Origin: Atribacteraceae bacterium
Lineage (GTDB): Bacteria > Atribacterota > Atribacteria > Atribacterales > Atribacteraceae
NCBI GenBank assembly: GCA_035477455.1
Contig: DATIKP010000159.1
Span: 1-47,411 of the forward strand
Reading direction: 5' to 3'
DNA length: 47,411 bases
Shown: piece by piece, positions 4,296 to 42,828 of the stretch
How the letters are laid out: each line of letters opens with the position of its first letter
Numbering within the stretch: the stretch's first letter is position 1
Made by a program: the position numbers and the translations under genes
Notes under the pieces: model-generated
The model's database searches: none
Seen by the model: only the letters and a program-made list of their open reading frames with translations
Told to the model about the DNA's origin: nothing

Positions 4296-4670
4296 TTACA
4301 TCACCACAACCTGATATCCCTGTTCCGTATATCGACTCATTGCCGGGTGGCCGTTCAACTCGTCGAGGAACGGCAAACCCTCCTGTTTTACCGCGTCCAG
4401 GATTCCCATTTTCCGGGAACAGGCCAAACCGGCCCCCTCGATCGATGCCGATTCCTTCGCTTTGCAGTACAGACGATGAAGCGGATGGCTTTCCCCGGCC
4501 AACAGGGGAATCAGCCGGGTGGCGGCTCCCTCGAAAACCAGGACGGCTTCCCCTCCCCGCGCCTGAAAATCAAGCACGCTGAGGAGCACATGAACAAAGC
4601 AGGTTTCATCGTCACGGAAAGCAAAGAAAGCGATCTTCTGCATCCTCGCGGTGTTAGAGAGGGCGGGCAT
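4296..4670 (-). CDS. DsrE-like family protein
   Basis: A small cytoplasmic protein of about 124 residues with a Rossmann-like pattern: a first strand KIAFFAFRD, a helix VHVLLSVLDFQARGG, a second strand EAVLVFEGAA, and a later segment EGAGLACSRKMGI carrying a candidate active cysteine. This matches the DsrE/DsrF-like superfamily, several of which move sulfur or sense redox state. The ATG chosen overlaps the 3' end of the upstream HMA gene, which suggests translational coupling. A second ATG nine codons later (4643) gives a product starting MQKIAFF and may be the true start, although no clear ribosome binding site precedes it. Its coupling to a metal-binding HMA domain points to thiol or metal handling, an inference from context only. 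Confidence 0.65.
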   Translation of the reverse strand: MPALSNTARMQKIAFFAFRDDETCFVHVLLSVLDFQARGGEAVLVFEGAATRLIPLLAGESHPLHRLYCKAKESASIEGAGLACSRKMGILDAVKQEGLPFLDELNGHPAMSRYTEQGYQVVVM

Positions 4671-4854
4671 GGTATCCGGCCTTTTCAACGACCGCAACCA
4701 GGATTTCGGTCCGGACAGGGGGGGCAGTTATGAACTCGGCTACTCCCGTTTTCAGGTCAATATTCACCGATACCACACCGTCAACCTGCTCCAGTTCTTT
4801 TTTCAAACGCGTGACGCAGTGCTGACAACTCATTCCATCGATTTTTAGTTTCAT
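4654..4854 (-). CDS. Heavy-metal-associated (HMA) domain protein, CopZ-like
   Basis: A 66-residue single-domain protein with the ferredoxin-like HMA fold used by copper chaperones. The metal-binding loop GMSCQHC places the two ligand cysteines at residues 10 and 13, and the VDGVVSVNIDL and VVEKAGYHA elements are typical of the family. The start ATG follows GGGAGGTG at good spacing; an upstream in-frame methionine would add 19 residues without a proper site. It is the first gene of the minus-strand run leading to the DsrE-like and reductase genes. No P-type copper ATPase or CsoR/CueR regulator is present nearby, so metal delivery to a partner here is unproven. Copper(I) is the likeliest ligand, with zinc or cadmium as alternatives. 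Confidence 0.88.
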   Translation of the reverse strand: MKLKIDGMSCQHCVTRLKKELEQVDGVVSVNIDLKTGVAEFITAPPVRTEILVAVVEKAGYHARPL

Positions 4855-4898
4855 GAAAAACACCTCCCAGGTAAATCCAGGATTCAAGATATAAAACT

Positions 4899-5130
4899 GA
4901 TTTTGCTGCAAAAACTCATTTCAGCAAGGCCCCGTTGCCATCAGCCCCGCCTCATCTGGTGTTTTCTCGCACGCATCAATGACCACGTCTGGTTACGGTG
5001 ATGCTGAAAAGGCCATCCTTGGCCTTTTTGCTGCGAAAACGCGGTGATTTCGGCGGCTGATTCAGGCAGCTCAGGCCCGGGCTTCCTTCGTTCTTTTGCA
5101 GCAAAATTACTTATTACAGTAGAATCAAAA
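4899..5130. repeat. Dispersed noncoding repeat, copy 2 (with terminal inverted repeats)
   Basis: Second copy of the repeat. It is bounded by perfect 14-base inverted repeats, ATTTTGCTGCAAAA at 4900-4913 and TTTTGCAGCAAAAT at 5094-5107, followed by a conserved tail ending AGAATCAAAA. The internal hairpin of AAAAGGCC and GGCCTTTT lies at 5007-5028 and resembles a bidirectional intrinsic terminator. The copy sits between the divergent HMA gene and the thiT leader, so it could insulate the two units. The word AAAACTCATTT occurs both just inside the left end and just outside the right end. Confidence 0.9.
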
Positions 5131-5407: not shown

Positions 5408-5418
5408 TTCTATTCCGA

Positions 5419-5505
5419 TACTGGGGAGCTCTTGATAAGAGCTGAGATAAGGCTTGAAGCCTTGACCCGCATAACCTGATCAGGATAATGCCTGCGTAGG
5501 GAATG
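5419..5505 (+). promoter_or_regulatory. TPP riboswitch (THI element)
   Basis: The conserved thiamine pyrophosphate aptamer is plain. A 5' arm with CTGGGGAGCTC is followed by the CTGAGAT motif at 5442-5448, then ACCCGC and AACCTGATC at 5473-5481, then TAATGCCTGCGTAGGGAA closing the aptamer. Between aptamer and start codon are a short CGCAC/GTGCG hairpin followed by TTTT, and a pyrimidine stretch CCCCTCCTCC that could pair with the AAGGAG ribosome binding site of thiT. Ligand binding is therefore expected to turn the gene off, by termination, by site masking, or both. The aptamer call is firm; the mechanism is inferred. Confidence 0.95.
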
Positions 5506-5581
5506 CCGCCTCGCTCTCTCGGGCGCACCGTAAAAGTGCGTTTTCCCCTCCTCCCCGGAACGGTTTATAAGGAGATGTGAA

Positions 5582-10155: not shown

Positions 10156-10794
10156 TTAACGGAGCAAGCCCAGGCGGGTTAACGGCCAAAAAGTAAAAAA
10201 CCCTCGGCCCAGAATGGTGTTCCGGGGAACGAAACCCCAAATCCGGCTATCCAGACTGTTAATGCTGTTGTCTCCCAGAACGTAATAAGTGCCTTCCGGT
10301 ACGATGACTTCTCTCGACCCATAATAACCAACGGCGAGATAAACCCTTTCGGAAAACTCTTCGTTCAATGGCTGGTCATTAATCAATATCTGGCCGTTTT
10401 CAATGCGGACCCGTTCGCCAGGGAGGCCAACCACCCTTTTGACCAGCCGCTCCCTCGCCCTCCCCTGGCTGCGCTCGGCTGGTTCCCGAAAGACGATAAT
10501 ATCACCACGCTGCGGATCGGTGAAGCGATACCAGAATTTGGCCGCTAAAATTCTCTGCCCCGGGATAATCGTTGGTTCCATCGACGAGGTCGGGATAAAA
10601 AAACTCTGGACCACAAAATTAATCATAAACCAGGCGATCACCGCCGCCCAAAGACCGGTTTTCACCCATTCCCATACAACTTCTTTCCGCTTTGACCGGA
10701 TTTTGTGCTTCGTCTTTTCTACAGATGAACTTCCCACTGTTTCGCCCCTTTCTCCCAAGATCGTTTCGATACTGAAACGATTGTGTCTGTCCAT
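10156..10794 (-). CDS. lepB: Signal peptidase I
   Basis: Membrane-bound serine/lysine protease that removes signal peptides from exported proteins. The 212-residue product has one membrane segment (about residues 44-64, WVKTGLWAAVIAWFMINF), the catalytic serine S71 in IPTSSMEPT, the general-base lysine K119 in RLVKRVVGLPG, and the box E motif GDNSINSLDSR. One membrane anchor and about 200 residues fit the Gram-positive type. Start choice is open: the ATG given has no ribosome binding site, whereas a GTG at 10737 follows AAAGGGG by seven bases and would give 193 residues. The gene precedes the xylose-isomerase-like gene on the same strand, about 100 bases away. Confidence 0.93.
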   Translation of the reverse strand: MDRHNRFSIETILGERGETVGSSSVEKTKHKIRSKRKEVVWEWVKTGLWAAVIAWFMINFVVQSFFIPTSSMEPTIIPGQRILAAKFWYRFTDPQRGDIIVFREPAERSQGRARERLVKRVVGLPGERVRIENGQILINDQPLNEEFSERVYLAVGYYGSREVIVPEGTYYVLGDNSINSLDSRIWGFVPRNTILGRGFFTFWPLTRLGLLR

Positions 10795-10844: not shown

Positions 10845-11005
10845 CCCCCCTTTTTTTCCCTTGAAATTCAGAAAGCCATCATCGGTGACTACGATGTAGT
10901 CCCGCACTTCTATATCAAGGATTGCCCCGACTTGATCAACTACTCGGTAATCCGGATATCCGCTTCCGAAACGTTCATGGTCAGCGTGGGGCGGTTGCGC
11001 ACCGA
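10845..11005 (-). pseudogene. radC: Decayed RadC (JAB/MPN domain) C-terminal fragment
   Basis: Two adjacent frames on the minus strand together resemble the end of RadC. One reads VRNRPTLTMNVSEADIRITE and stops; the next frame resumes as VDQVGAILDIEVRDYIVV then TDDGFLNFKGK. In intact RadC the corresponding stretch is V-H-N-H-P-S-G followed by SEADIRIT and a helix ending in LDIEV-x-DH, so a frameshift lies near 10941. Both metal-binding histidines of the H-x-H motif are arginines here. Nothing convincing of the upstream part of RadC was recognised. This is a dead fragment, possibly left by a lost mobile or accessory island. Confidence 0.55.
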
Positions 11006-11046
11006 GCTACCCTCAAAACTTGGGTATAGCCAAATAAAAACAGCTA

Positions 11047-11107
11047 GCCTATCCTCAGGGGAAGTTCCGATCAAGAAATCACCTCGCTCCCCGCAGGGAG
11101 GATAGGC
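11047..11107. repeat. Long inverted repeat (hairpin)
   Basis: GCCTATCCTC at 11047-11056 is matched exactly by GAGGATAGGC at 11098-11107, and just inside lies GGGGA paired with TCCCC. The interior is about 25 bases. It overlaps no intact gene and could be a terminator lacking a T tract, a recombination remnant or a structured RNA. Confidence 0.6.
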
Positions 11108-11516
11108 CGTGGGAAAAGCAAAGCACGTTACAAAGAAAATGTCAAAGGTAATAAACCCGGAAATGAGTCCAGAAACGCACCAAGCCGATGGCCTCAACCC
11201 GAAAACCCGCGCTCTCCGGAGCGAGTTCCTCCGGGAAGGAGTCCGCAGAATACCACCCATAGCCAGCGTAGTGGCAGGGGAGGAGTTGATGGCCCCACAC
11301 TACGCTACCCGGGTGCGGGACCGGAGAAAGGACGGGATGGCCGGTGGATGGCCCACTGGCCGGAGGAGTTCACCATTTGGCGGAAAAGAGACCTCTCCCG
11401 GAAACGCTATGTCTACTGGTGGGGTAGGGGAGTGTCCCTGCCTACCCGCAGGAAGGAGAGAACCGGTATCTTGGTGATCAGCGGAGCCGGCAAGGACGGG
11501 ATCGAGGAAGTAACAT
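11108..11516. other. Noncoding interval, no gene seen
   Basis: About 400 bases between the hairpin and repeat copy 3. Open frames on the plus strand are low-complexity (rich in G, P, R and S) and have no relatives I recognise. Short GC-rich palindromes such as GCTCTCCGGAGC near 11210-11221 occur. I see no RNA family or mobile element that can be named. Confidence 0.35.
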
Positions 11517-11748
11517 TGATTTTGCTGCAAAAACTCATTTCAGCGAGGCCGCGTTGCCCTCAGCCCCGCCTCATCTGGCATTTTCTGGCACGCATCAATG
11601 ACCACGTCTGGTTGCAGTGATGCTGAAAAGGCCATCCTTGGCCTTTTTACTTCGAAGATGCGGTGATTTCGGCGGCTGATTTAGGCAACTTAGGCCCGGG
11701 CTTCCTTCGTTCTTTTGCAGCAAAATTACTTATGGCAGTAGAATCAAA
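11517..11748. repeat. Dispersed noncoding repeat, copy 3 (with terminal inverted repeats)
   Basis: Third copy. Perfect 14-base inverted ends ATTTTGCTGCAAAA (11519-11532) and TTTTGCAGCAAAAT (11713-11726) are the same as in copy 2, and the conserved tail runs on to AGAATCAAAA. The AAAAGGCC/GGCCTTTT hairpin is at 11626-11647. It lies about 85 bases beyond the 3' end of tRNA-His, so the hairpin could serve as that transcript's terminator. Confidence 0.9.
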
Positions 11749-11832: not shown

Positions 11833-11909
11833 TGGGGTGGACGAGGGGATTCGAACCCCCAGCCCCTGGAGCCACAGTCCAGTGCTCTGACCGTTGAGCT
11901 ACGCCCACC
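11833..11909 (-). tRNA. tRNA-His (GTG anticodon)
   Basis: The minus strand folds as a full cloverleaf. The acceptor GTGGGCG pairs with CGTCCAC, with one G-U pair. The D arm is built on GCTC/GAGC, the anticodon stem CTGGA/TCCAG carries anticodon GTG, and the T arm contains GGTTCGAATCC. The extra 5' G at position -1 opposite C73, the hallmark of histidine tRNA, is encoded, as is the 3' CCA. A promoter lies just upstream. Confidence 0.97.
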
Positions 11910-11956: not shown

Positions 11957-12158
11957 GAGGGCTGGTGACTTACTTCCCGTCAGAAATAGTGTAAATGTAC
12001 CCAACAAACCTCCCCGCTAATCCTGATGCGGTTGTCGATAGTCAAGTCACTATATTTAAGCCGCTTCGGGCGAGCTTAGCTCATGACACGCCAGCCTGCC
12101 AACATCACAGCCAAGAGCAATCTGAACAATAGAGGAATATCCTCACTGATTCATGCCC

Positions 12159-12214
12159 ACCGAAAATGCCGGGATAACACTGTGACAAAAAGATGTTGTG
12201 CCGGCATTTTCGGT
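12159..12214 (-). terminator. Perfect 14-bp inverted repeat after the microprotein gene
   Basis: ACCGAAAATGCCGG at 12159-12172 and CCGGCATTTTCGGT at 12201-12214 are exact inverted copies around a 28-base loop. On the minus strand it follows the stop codon of the cysteine-rich microprotein by 18 bases, so a transcript-ending or stabilising hairpin is likely. A clear T tract after the stem is lacking, so factor-dependent termination or a different role remains possible. Confidence 0.55.
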
Positions 12215-12232
12215 ATGGTCTACCTTCCGGTT

Positions 12233-12382
12233 TTAGGGGCAGCAGCCACTGTCCTTGCTTTCTTCTTCTTTAACCTTTTCAGTCTTCTCTTCTTCCTGGG
12301 GCAGAAAACCGGAGCTTGAACAGCAACACCCTCTGCGTAGCTTGAGGCGTTGATCCGTAGGCTTTTTGTTGTTTTCAGGCAT
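12233..12382 (-). CDS. Cysteine-rich charged microprotein, unknown
   Basis: A 49-residue reading frame, too short for most gene finders but well supported. ATG follows AAAGGAG by seven bases, a promoter (TTGCCT, 17-base spacer, TACAAT) lies upstream, and a perfect hairpin follows the stop. The product has a basic N-terminal third, then the motif GCCCSSSG at residues 18-25, a highly acidic and lysine-rich middle (QEEEKTEKVKEEESKD) and a C-terminal GCCP. There is no signal peptide or membrane segment. The CCC and CC clusters suggest metal or Fe-S binding, or a disulfide-linked fold, but I recognise no family. Function unknown. Confidence 0.6.
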   Translation of the reverse strand: MPENNKKPTDQRLKLRRGCCCSSSGFLPQEEEKTEKVKEEESKDSGCCP

Positions 12383-12440
12383 GTGTCTACTCCTTTCTTT
12401 CCGTTTCGCGAATCATGTTTTTTGAAGCACCTTTACCTTC

Positions 12441-12469
12441 ATTGTAACGGAAAAACTCCCGGGAGGCAA
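12441..12469 (-). promoter_or_regulatory. Promoter of the microprotein gene
   Basis: Reading the minus strand, TTGCCT, a 17-base spacer and TACAAT precede the microprotein ATG by about 60 bases. Four of six bases match at -35 and five of six at -10. Confidence 0.5.
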
Positions 12470-12793
12470 ATAAAATACCCAACCGCTTGATATTATCTTA
12501 GCCAACTATATGCTAAACCAGCCGGAACAGGTTATATTCCATCTTCCCATTCCTATCAAGATTCTTTTCAAATGTCCTGTTTTTTTTATTCTGTGATCAT
12601 GTCCCGCAAAGTCTTTCCGTGAAAATGTCCCCCCGTAGAATGAAGAGATGATCCTGACCATGACTAAATAAGAACGAAACAAACTCTGGTCTACCTGACG
12701 AAGATGACCAGCAGGAAGACAGATCTTCCGGGCCTTGGCATACGCCATCTAACCCCCCGGTCGTTGGAACCCCGGGCTCCTTTTGCGGCCTGC
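12470..12793. other. Noncoding interval, no gene seen
   Basis: Between the microprotein promoter and the hairpin at 12794 no open frame has both a ribosome binding site and plausible composition. I see nothing that can be named. Confidence 0.35.
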
Positions 12794-12846
12794 GGTCTCC
12801 CGGTAGAGGAGATGAGCGCATCTACCTTTTGTGCCGCCAGGAGACC
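12794..12846. repeat. Nested hairpin upstream of the ilv-leu promoter
   Basis: An outer pair GGTCTCC (12794-12800) and GGAGACC (12840-12846) encloses a second pair GGTAGA (12802-12807) and TCTACC (12821-12826), with a small GATG/CATC dyad inside. It ends about 60 bases before the -35 box of the T-box promoter. It could be a terminator for something upstream, a protein-binding site or an RNA; no T tract follows on either strand. Confidence 0.45.
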
Positions 12847-12904
12847 GAAAGTGGATAACGGCTCGCTTCTCTCCTGGTCACTTGACAACTCACTGGCTCA
12901 CTGG

Positions 12905-12933
12905 TTGCATAAAAAAGTGTTCTATGGTATAGT
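12905..12933 (+). promoter_or_regulatory. Promoter of the ilv-leu operon
   Basis: TTGCAT, a 17-base spacer and TATAGT form a strong sigma-A-type promoter. Transcription should start near 12940, leaving a leader of about 380 bases that carries the T-box. Confidence 0.75.
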
Positions 12934-12939
12934 GCTTGG

Positions 12940-13252
12940 TAACATCTTTTCCCTTTTTTCTATGGGGGATCGGTCGGCAAAGACTGTGACGGGGTTCAGT
13001 ACGCTTGTTTCCCGGTACCAGAGAGCCTGAAGTAATGCTGCAATCAGGCACCCGGAATAAGCGGAAACTCACCCCTGAGTCGAAGGCTGAAAGGATATAC
13101 CGATTAAGCCTCTCCGGGAACTCCCGTTACAGATGACGGTATTATTATAGTACAAGTACCGGGAATCAAGTGACCCTTTTGACGGGTAAGCAGGGTGGTA
13201 CCGCGGGGGTGTAAACCCCTCGTCCCTATTTATATGGACGAGGGGTTTTTTT
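12940..13252 (+). promoter_or_regulatory. T-box leader, probably leucine-specific
   Basis: tRNA-sensing leader of the branched-chain operon. The stem I distal hairpin is GCCTGA (13025-13030) paired with TCAGGC (13044-13049), whose loop contains AGTAATG and GCTGCAA. An AGAGAG element precedes it. A specifier in the context GGAAACTCA reads CTC at 13078-13080 (leucine) followed by the usual A. The T-box sequence AGGGTGGTACCGCG lies at 13192-13205. The terminator is CCCCTCGTCC (13216-13225) with GGACGAGGGG (13236-13245) and seven Ts. Uncharged tRNA-Leu should favour the antiterminator and switch the operon on. The T-box call is firm; the leucine reading of the specifier is likely but not certain. 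Confidence 0.93.
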
Positions 13253-13319
13253 ATAACCAAGACCCCTCAACACTGATACGCAAAAATGCCTTAACGGAAA
13301 AGAGGTGAGTGACGTAAGC

Positions 13320-27606: not shown

Positions 27607-27848
27607 GATTCAACACCTGGGCTTTTTTTATCCTCGGCCGGCACCCGGGAAACAATCCAGAATAAATAATAATATACCACTACATACACCACGATGGCGA
27701 TGACAAAGCTTCTCCACACCACCGTAAACAAACTAATATTTCGCACCATTCCCCAGACGAAATAGAACAGTACCACGAGCCAGGTCAGGGACAATGCCAG
27801 CAGCCGAGGAGTTTTTTTTCGTCTGTCGCTGATCAAATGACAAAACAC
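27603..27848 (-). CDS. Small two-helix membrane protein, unknown
   Basis: An 81-residue protein with two hydrophobic segments (about 16-37, LLALSLTWLVVLFYFVWGMV, and about 43-66, VWRSFVIAIVVYVVVYYYLFWI), a basic N-terminus and a charged cytoplasmic tail. It overlaps the cheD end by 16 bases and the fliA start by four (ATGA), which argues for a real, coupled gene. Small membrane proteins at this position occur in several motile Firmicutes. I do not recognise the function. Confidence 0.7.
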   Translation of the reverse strand: MFCHLISDRRKKTPRLLALSLTWLVVLFYFVWGMVRNISLFTVVWRSFVIAIVVYVVVYYYLFWIVSRVPAEDKKSPGVES

Positions 27849-28309
27849 TCCTGTCCAATCGTCTTGACTTCCAGCCGGCCATTTTGGACATGAAACGTGA
27901 TACTCCGTCCCCGGTTACCTCCGGTATTTTCCCCAAGCAATGGTATACCCAAATCCTGTACGACCTGTTTGACCGCTTCGACATTCCGCTTACCGATGTC
28001 AAAGAGGGAATCGGTCCCGGCAAACATTTTCGCACCACCGGCGATCTTGGCAATGACGTTTTTTTTCCGGGCTCCGACTTTGGCCATTTCCTCCAATAGT
28101 GCTTCTACGGCCGTATCGGCAAATTTAAAAATGTTCTTCTGACCCGGGATGCTCTGCGGCAAGAGGATATGAGCCATACCCGCCACACAGTTTTCCCGGT
28201 CATACAGACAGGCCCCGACACAGGAGCCCAGCCCCATGATGCACAACCGGTCTTCCGGTTTGTCGCTGACACGGAACTCCGCCATCCCAATCGAATATTT
28301 CTGTCCCAT
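27833..28309 (-). CDS. cheD: Chemoreceptor glutamine deamidase CheD
   Basis: Deamidates glutamines on chemoreceptors and stimulates CheC phosphatase. The 158-residue product has the conserved GLGSCVG with nucleophile C30 and AHILLP with general-base H47. The third member of the known triad, a threonine six residues before the cysteine, is isoleucine here (CIMGLGSC), which may weaken deamidation while leaving CheC binding possible. The gene follows cheC after two bases. C-terminal segments such as AKIAGGAKMF and GIPLLGENTGGNRGRSITFH match the family. Confidence 0.95.
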   Translation of the reverse strand: MGQKYSIGMAEFRVSDKPEDRLCIMGLGSCVGACLYDRENCVAGMAHILLPQSIPGQKNIFKFADTAVEALLEEMAKVGARKKNVIAKIAGGAKMFAGTDSLFDIGKRNVEAVKQVVQDLGIPLLGENTGGNRGRSITFHVQNGRLEVKTIGQECFVI

Positions 28310-41490: not shown

Positions 41491-41523
41491 TTTTCATTTT
41501 CCTCTCAGCGAAATGATGTAGAA

Positions 41524-41575
41524 GGGTAGATGAGTGATGAGTTTATTGTTCTTTTGCTCTTTAACCCATCTACCC
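41524..41575. repeat. Imperfect inverted repeat between flgE and flbD
   Basis: GGGTAGATG (41524-41532) and CATCTACCC (41567-41575) are exact inverted arms; pairing continues inward with mismatches. It occupies most of the 111-base spacer and lies downstream of the flgE stop, ahead of the flbD start. It could be a weak terminator or mRNA-stabilising hairpin separating hook-protein and stator expression. Confidence 0.6.
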
Positions 41576-41601
41576 TATCATGAATTGCCACATCAAGGTA
41601 A

Positions 41602-42828
41602 TTATCGCTTTAACGTCAGAAGTTCCTGGAGCATTTCATCCGACGTGGTGATCACCCGGGAGTTGGCCTGAAATCCCCGCTGGGTGGTAATCATGCTGGT
41701 AAACTCCTGGGCAAGGTCCACGTTGGACATCTCGAGTGCCCCTACCGCGATGGAGCCCCGGCCTCCCGAGTTGGCGGTCCCGACGTTGGCCGTTCCGGAG
41801 TTGTTGGAGATCTGGTAGAGATTGCCACCCGCCTTAAGGAGCCCGCCCGGATTGACGAAGTTGGCCATGGCCAACTGGGCCAGAGCACTGGATTGGCCGT
41901 TGGTGAAGATTCCGGTGATCATCCCGGCTGAATCGGTGGTCACCATGTCGAGATCACCGGCCGGATAACCGTCCTGGAAAGAGACATGGGCGGTTGGCGC
42001 CCCGGAAAATTGGGTAAGATTTTCAAAGTTCAATAATACCTCAAGAGGTTCCGCAGCGCCTCCCCCCGGATTAAAGCTGATCTGGGCACCGGTAACGCTG
42101 TCGAATATCCCGTTGGTTGCAAAGGTTGTACTGCCGCTTCCAATAGAGGTTACATTGTCAGCCGGATCGAAGGCTTCCCAGTGCCACGTGTTGTTGGCGG
42201 ATTTGGTAAAAATTACTGGTATATCATGAAGATTACCCAATGAGTCGAAAATTTCCGCCCGGGTGTTCCAGGAGTCTCCCATCGCGAAATTCGCGTCCAG
42301 GTTACCGTCAAACTGTAAATCCCCCGTGGCCTGCGGTTCCATCTGGGTGGTGAGGGGCAGGACGATATTGGAAAGTCCCCCGGTGACGTCGATGTTTCCG
42401 CCATCACCCGCCATCCAACCCTGTACCCGCAAGCCATTGGCATTGACCAGCGCTCCGTCGGCGGATAACTTAAAGGCGCCGTCCCGGGTGTAGAACTGTT
42501 GGGTGCCATCCCCAACAATGAAAAATCCGTCACCTTCAATGGCGAAATCAGTGGGGTTATCAGTGGTCTGGAGCCCACCCGGGGTGAATATAGTATCAAT
42601 GGCCCCGATGGTCATCCCCAGGCCCACCTGTTTGGGGTTAACCCCACCCCGGCCTCCGGCCTGCGGCGTGCGAGCCCCGGATATAGTCTGGTTTAGAATG
42701 TCCTGGAAATTCACCCGGCCGGCCTTGAAAGCCACAGTATTCACGTTGGCGATATTGTTTCCGATCACGTCCATCCGAGTCTGATGGTTTTTCAAACCCG
42801 ACACAGCAGTAAACATAGAACGCATCAT
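41602..42828 (-). CDS. flgE: Flagellar hook protein FlgE
   Basis: Subunit of the hook, exported by the flagellar type III system. The 408-residue product has the axial-protein N-terminus (MFTAVSGLKNHQTRMDVIGN then NIANVNTVAFKAGRVNF) and the signature TDNPTDFAIEGDGFFIVGDG near residue 90. A variable middle holds the outer domains, and the C-terminus ends with ALEMSNVDLAQEFTSMITTQ and RGFQANSRVITTSDEML, the coiled-coil end. GAGGAGG precedes the start; a second ATG follows immediately and is equally possible. It follows the TIGR02530-type gene. Confidence 0.97.
   Translation of the reverse strand: MMRSMFTAVSGLKNHQTRMDVIGNNIANVNTVAFKAGRVNFQDILNQTISGARTPQAGGRGGVNPKQVGLGMTIGAIDTIFTPGGLQTTDNPTDFAIEGDGFFIVGDGTQQFYTRDGAFKLSADGALVNANGLRVQGWMAGDGGNIDVTGGLSNIVLPLTTQMEPQATGDLQFDGNLDANFAMGDSWNTRAEIFDSLGNLHDIPVIFTKSANNTWHWEAFDPADNVTSIGSGSTTFATNGIFDSVTGAQISFNPGGGAAEPLEVLLNFENLTQFSGAPTAHVSFQDGYPAGDLDMVTTDSAGMITGIFTNGQSSALAQLAMANFVNPGGLLKAGGNLYQISNNSGTANVGTANSGGRGSIAVGALEMSNVDLAQEFTSMITTQRGFQANSRVITTSDEMLQELLTLKR

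Follow-up and report, generated by a model that had tools for sequence, protein, structure and literature searches.

The minus strand of a 2.5-kb intergenic region in an Atribacteraceae genome carries a 49-codon open reading frame (positions 12233–12382) that may be a lineage-restricted (orphan) small-protein gene. We put the probability of this reading at slightly below one half (about 0.48). The window, by which we mean the whole 47,411-nucleotide stretch that was analyzed, comes from contig 159 of a 2.16-Mb assembly (174 contigs, 96.31% complete), and, in a family of 10 genomes, this one is the sole representative of its genus. A promoter-like site, an AAAGGAG ribosome binding site, the 49 codons and a 14-bp hairpin are all present on the minus strand in the order described by the first-pass annotation, which took them for an autonomous gene. 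The ribosome binding site and the hairpin make this plausible, but the codon usage is not supportive.

The gap that holds the ORF is bounded by a signal peptidase gene (10156–10794, PF10502) on one side and by a T-box-led ilv/leu operon on the other. Along the minus strand, the candidate is followed by tRNA-His (11833–11908, same strand), a 232-bp repeat and the signal peptidase gene. The ilv operon is divergent from the candidate; it is headed by the T-box (12977–13230), and ilvB starts at 13305. The T-box leader (12977–13250) has a hairpin with a T-run (13213–13248) in front of ilvB. Opposite this leader and upstream of the candidate lie four minus-strand ORFs of 60–80 aa (12506–13072), which we have no reason to regard as genes. 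Elsewhere in the window, a TPP riboswitch is found at 5412–5519.

Start signals, reading frame and codon usage

The ribosome binding site (12390–12396, minus strand) was located 7 nt ahead of the ATG at 12382, as had been claimed. A match of at least seven letters at the proper distance occurs at 9 of the 1391 ATGs in the window and in 8 of its 44 genes, counting starts within the first 20 codons. Nine ATG-initiated ORFs of at least 45 aa possess such a match and the candidate is the ninth, the other eight all being in frame with recognizable genes: MgtE, CheR, FliL, FliK, the aconitase C-terminal domain, a heavy-metal-associated (HMA) domain and FlgD, which were recognized by Pfam, and ilvB, which was identified by comparison with relatives. 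The 2.5-kb intergenic region was subjected to 500 dinucleotide shuffles, and 4% of these contain an ATG ORF of at least 45 aa with a match of this length. With the laxer limit of six letters the figure is 11.6%, and the real region then holds a second ORF, on the plus strand. The ribosome binding site of the candidate is thus better than chance, and hardly any ATG outside the genes of this window has a match of at least seven letters.

The promoter-like site (12441–12469, minus strand) is present as described, with TTGCCT at 12469–12464 and TACAAT at 12446–12441 separated by 17 nt, and agrees with the consensus at 9 of 12 positions. Matches of this quality are not above chance, as 1.4 kb of this DNA contain three of them and shuffled sequences 1.5 (sd 1.3). 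If the site is used, minus-strand transcription would start near 12434, and ribosomes would load at AAAGGAG.

The frame itself conforms to its earlier description: it has a CCC cluster, a K/E-rich middle and a C-terminal GCCP, and its stop codon ends at 12233. It is the single ORF of at least 40 aa between the promoter-like site and the hairpin. A Pfam search with an alternative minus-strand frame, which stays open over 67 codons, gave no match. The openness of the frame is weak evidence, however. Three of the six frames, that of the candidate included, are open over much of this stretch, so an open frame alone says little.

Codon usage was compared with that of 236 gene segments, each 49 codons long, and of 232 short ORFs (40–90 aa). 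The latter set contains the candidate, the HMA gene and possibly further real small genes. The candidate scores −0.10 bits per codon; only 2 of the 236 gene segments score lower, whereas 92 of the 232 short ORFs score at least as high. In terms of synonymous choices only, 11 of the 236 gene segments are lower and 158 of the 232 short ORFs are as high. A ribosomal-L33-like ORF of the same genome, also of 49 aa, does better on both the overall and the synonymous-only score (+0.06 and +0.14), and so does the HMA gene (+0.23 and +0.09). The codon usage of the candidate is therefore unlike that of the genome's genes and falls among chance ORFs, at the low edge of the gene segments, in a test that is weak for a young, Cys-rich ORF of 49 codons.

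Such non-genic codon choice, together with the open frames, is what one would expect if the ORF had arisen by chance behind a string resembling a ribosome binding site in unselected, low-complexity intergenic DNA, with the hairpin unrelated to it. The stretch is of low complexity and rich in GAA/GAG and GCTGCTGC-like runs. We consider a chance origin quite possible. It has to contend with the near restriction of long ribosome-binding-site matches to genes and with the hairpin, which begins 18 nt behind the stop codon and far exceeds chance expectation. If the ORF is a lineage-restricted gene, it would be of recent origin, acquired by transfer or evolving very fast, and this would account for both its atypical codon use and its missing relatives.

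The downstream hairpin

The perfect 14-bp inverted repeat reported earlier was confirmed. It lies at 12159–12214 on the minus strand, its arms (12159–12172 and 12201–12214) pair at 14 of 14 positions, and they extend to 21 nt at 90% pairing. Its folding z-score is −4.74, and none of 200 shuffles fold as well. Among the separated-arm repeats of the window (arms no more than 80 nt apart), these 21-nt arms are the longest; another perfect 14-bp repeat is found inside a gene (2748–2779). No U-run is present on either strand, and hence the hairpin is not a standard intrinsic terminator. It is also directly preceded by the end of a chance ORF on the plus strand (11995–12132). Perfect hairpins of at least 10 bp follow 1 of the 44 genes and 5 of the 313 other ORFs, the candidate included, so they are not a usual mark of gene ends in this window.

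For a minus-strand gene transcript, the strong hairpin would protect or define the 3′ end. Because there is no U-run, it is probably the place to which a transcript terminated further downstream is trimmed back. Two other separated-arm repeats that lack a U-run are situated directly after genes, namely 41523–41576 after 41602–42828 and 27754–27825 after 27833–28309, and these are perhaps 3′-end signals of the same kind. Hairpin-bearing 3′ ends without a U-tract are described in a published report (PMC13289151), and the candidate resembles them in having a U-tract-less hairpin at the presumed end of its transcript. It differs in that its transcript end is predicted from the sequence. According to the same report, more than half of the U-tract-less ends in Synechococcus lack a high degree of structure.

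A stable hairpin at a suitable distance from a promoter-like site would also fit a small non-coding RNA, running from about 12434 to 12159, in which the hairpin is the functional part and the ORF is incidental. We regard this as unlikely. No Rfam family matches at gathering scores, and the three matches found under permissive settings all fall on the hairpin, belong to microRNA families and are far below the respective gathering scores (20.5 and 18.9 against 82, and 15.4 against 160). Furthermore, the remaining 219 nt, from the start region to the hairpin, are less structured than their shuffles (z +1.20), of which 180 out of 200 fold equally well or better. This is what one would expect if the RNA were a translated mRNA and not a structured RNA.

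Relatives and neighbouring repeats

The earlier statement that nothing known matches the peptide held in every library tried (Pfam, NCBIfam, PHROGs, PDB, phylum genomes, viral, plasmid and phage sequences). There is no match in Pfam, NCBIfam, PHROGs or PDB, and no credible relative in the 49 other genomes of the phylum. None was found in genome_contigs or viral contigs with exact short peptide patterns, which detect close relatives only, or in plasmids and phages with a search that masks low complexity, the peptide being of low complexity. Such searches are weak for a low-complexity peptide of 49 aa, and the absence of relatives is therefore not proof, but the lack of credible relatives in phylum genomes and genome_contigs is a further point in favor of a chance ORF.

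Protein searches of the genome itself, the family, the order and the phylum returned the window and nine weak matches elsewhere (E 0.0115 to 1.77), all of which were rejected. Three contain a stop and overlie a gene in a different frame, which we take to be radical SAM-like in two cases (G033 and G039) and thioredoxin-like in the third (G048). Another three (L006, L007 and L131) have a longer open stretch in another frame, and the last three (G045, G025 and G015) were dismissed solely for open frames of 615, 520 and 325 aa.

Motif scans of the 50 genomes were also negative: apart from the match in the window itself, the inspected matches were short or did not resemble the query. A scan for GCCP-stop endings gave 34 matches compared to 27 for a reversed-pattern control (30 were inspected), and a scan for the basic-x-GCCC-like motif gave 14 compared to 13 (all 14 were inspected). 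A pair of related frames in G036 and G038 terminates in GCCP but lacks both the CCC cluster and the K/E arm.

At the DNA level, many of the weak matches of the stretch 12130–12520 in the phylum fall in its purine-rich run, again a point in favor of a chance ORF. Positions 96–126 of this query, near the start codon, match several relatives at 84%; in all four places inspected, however, the match is antisense to a common, unrelated frame.

Synteny was examined around ilvB. This gene is present in 20 of the 25 genomes of the order, this one included, and regions were obtained from 18 of the 19 others; several of these are cut short by the end of a contig, and the omitted genome has a match that begins at a contig end. 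The window genes to the left of ilvB were not found in any of the 18 regions at E 1e-5, and these regions contain no tRNA. Small Cys-rich ORFs near the ilvB and tRNA-His matches of relatives, compared by eye among those passing a Cys and ribosome-binding filter, do not resemble the candidate. The ilv/leu gene order is common to the relatives as far as the fetched regions reach. Among the best 80 loci, the closest named ilvB relative belongs to 'Candidatus Atribacteria bacterium UBA3950' (67%), which points to Atribacterota as the probable phylum.

The neighborhood is rich in repeats, which likewise suits an unselected origin. The multicopy 232-bp repeat is a firmer finding than the candidate gene. 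Besides the copy at 11516–11747, the 2.16-Mb genome contains at least 39 further matches at 91–97% identity, a lower bound as 40 of 133 candidates were scored. Within the window, another copy lies at about 4892–5130, and one additional, partial copy at 71–272. Of the 50 phylum genomes, only the window's own has a match. The ends of the repeat form an imperfect inverted repeat (TTGATTTTGCTGCAA / TTGCAGTAGAATCAA), and no target-site duplication was seen by eye in six distinct copies matching a strict end pattern. It looks like a MITE or a similar non-autonomous element. The stretch to its left (11004–11746) is partly duplicated on contig 62 (22845–23853) in two pieces of 74% and 83% identity, and the ORFs at 10940–11260 and 11109–11477 within it have no Pfam match. 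The at least 40 copies of the repeat and this duplication raise the question of whether the candidate stretch is itself the remnant of a mobile or decayed element. We consider this highly improbable, as a second copy of the stretch was not found in the genome.

Possible function and comparison with known systems

If the gene is real, its product would be a soluble, lineage-restricted peptide of 49 residues. AlphaFold, run on the single sequence, gave no confident fold (mean pLDDT 64, pTM 0.17), and the peptide may be mostly disordered. Its five cysteines, arranged in CCC and CC clusters, would be suited to binding a soft metal or to forming disulfides; the thiols might coordinate a soft metal or metalloid, or link two peptides into a dimer through disulfide bridges. 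No supporting neighbor gene was found for a metal role, and the HMA gene (4654–4911) is 7.3 kb away, too far to argue from. No described family of metal- or Fe-S-binding peptides matched in Pfam, NCBIfam, PHROGs or PDB. A metal role is unlikely, and a metal or thiol role in general is a speculation drawn from the Cys pattern alone. The most specific version, in which the candidate would represent a new peptide family without relatives, namely a genus-restricted, disordered thiol peptide whose CCC and GCCP flank an acidic K/E arm and which would buffer a soft metal or metalloid, is decidedly unlikely.

SCIFF-type peptides have six Cys in about 45 residues and occur with a radical SAM enzyme. 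The candidate is similarly short and Cys-rich, at about 49 residues, but its Cys number five and are grouped as CCC and CC. It matched no NCBIfam family at E 10 or better, and a scan of 10 of the 44 window genes for radical SAM enzymes gave no match.

The candidate can also be compared with the orphan small intergenic genes of E. coli O157:H7, where taxonomically restricted small genes were found by ribosome profiling, as described in two reports (PMC5597208, PMC4765031). In common with these, the candidate is a short intergenic ORF that has its own start signals and falls outside known families. The E. coli orphans presented there come with transcript and footprint data, whereas the candidate is known from its sequence alone.

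If the ORF is untranslated, the locus would show that a promoter, a ribosome binding site, an ORF and a hairpin in a row are insufficient to call a gene when codon use and conservation give no backing. If it is translated, it would be a further orphan small protein from a little-studied lineage, and gene finders tend to overlook proteins of its size and composition.
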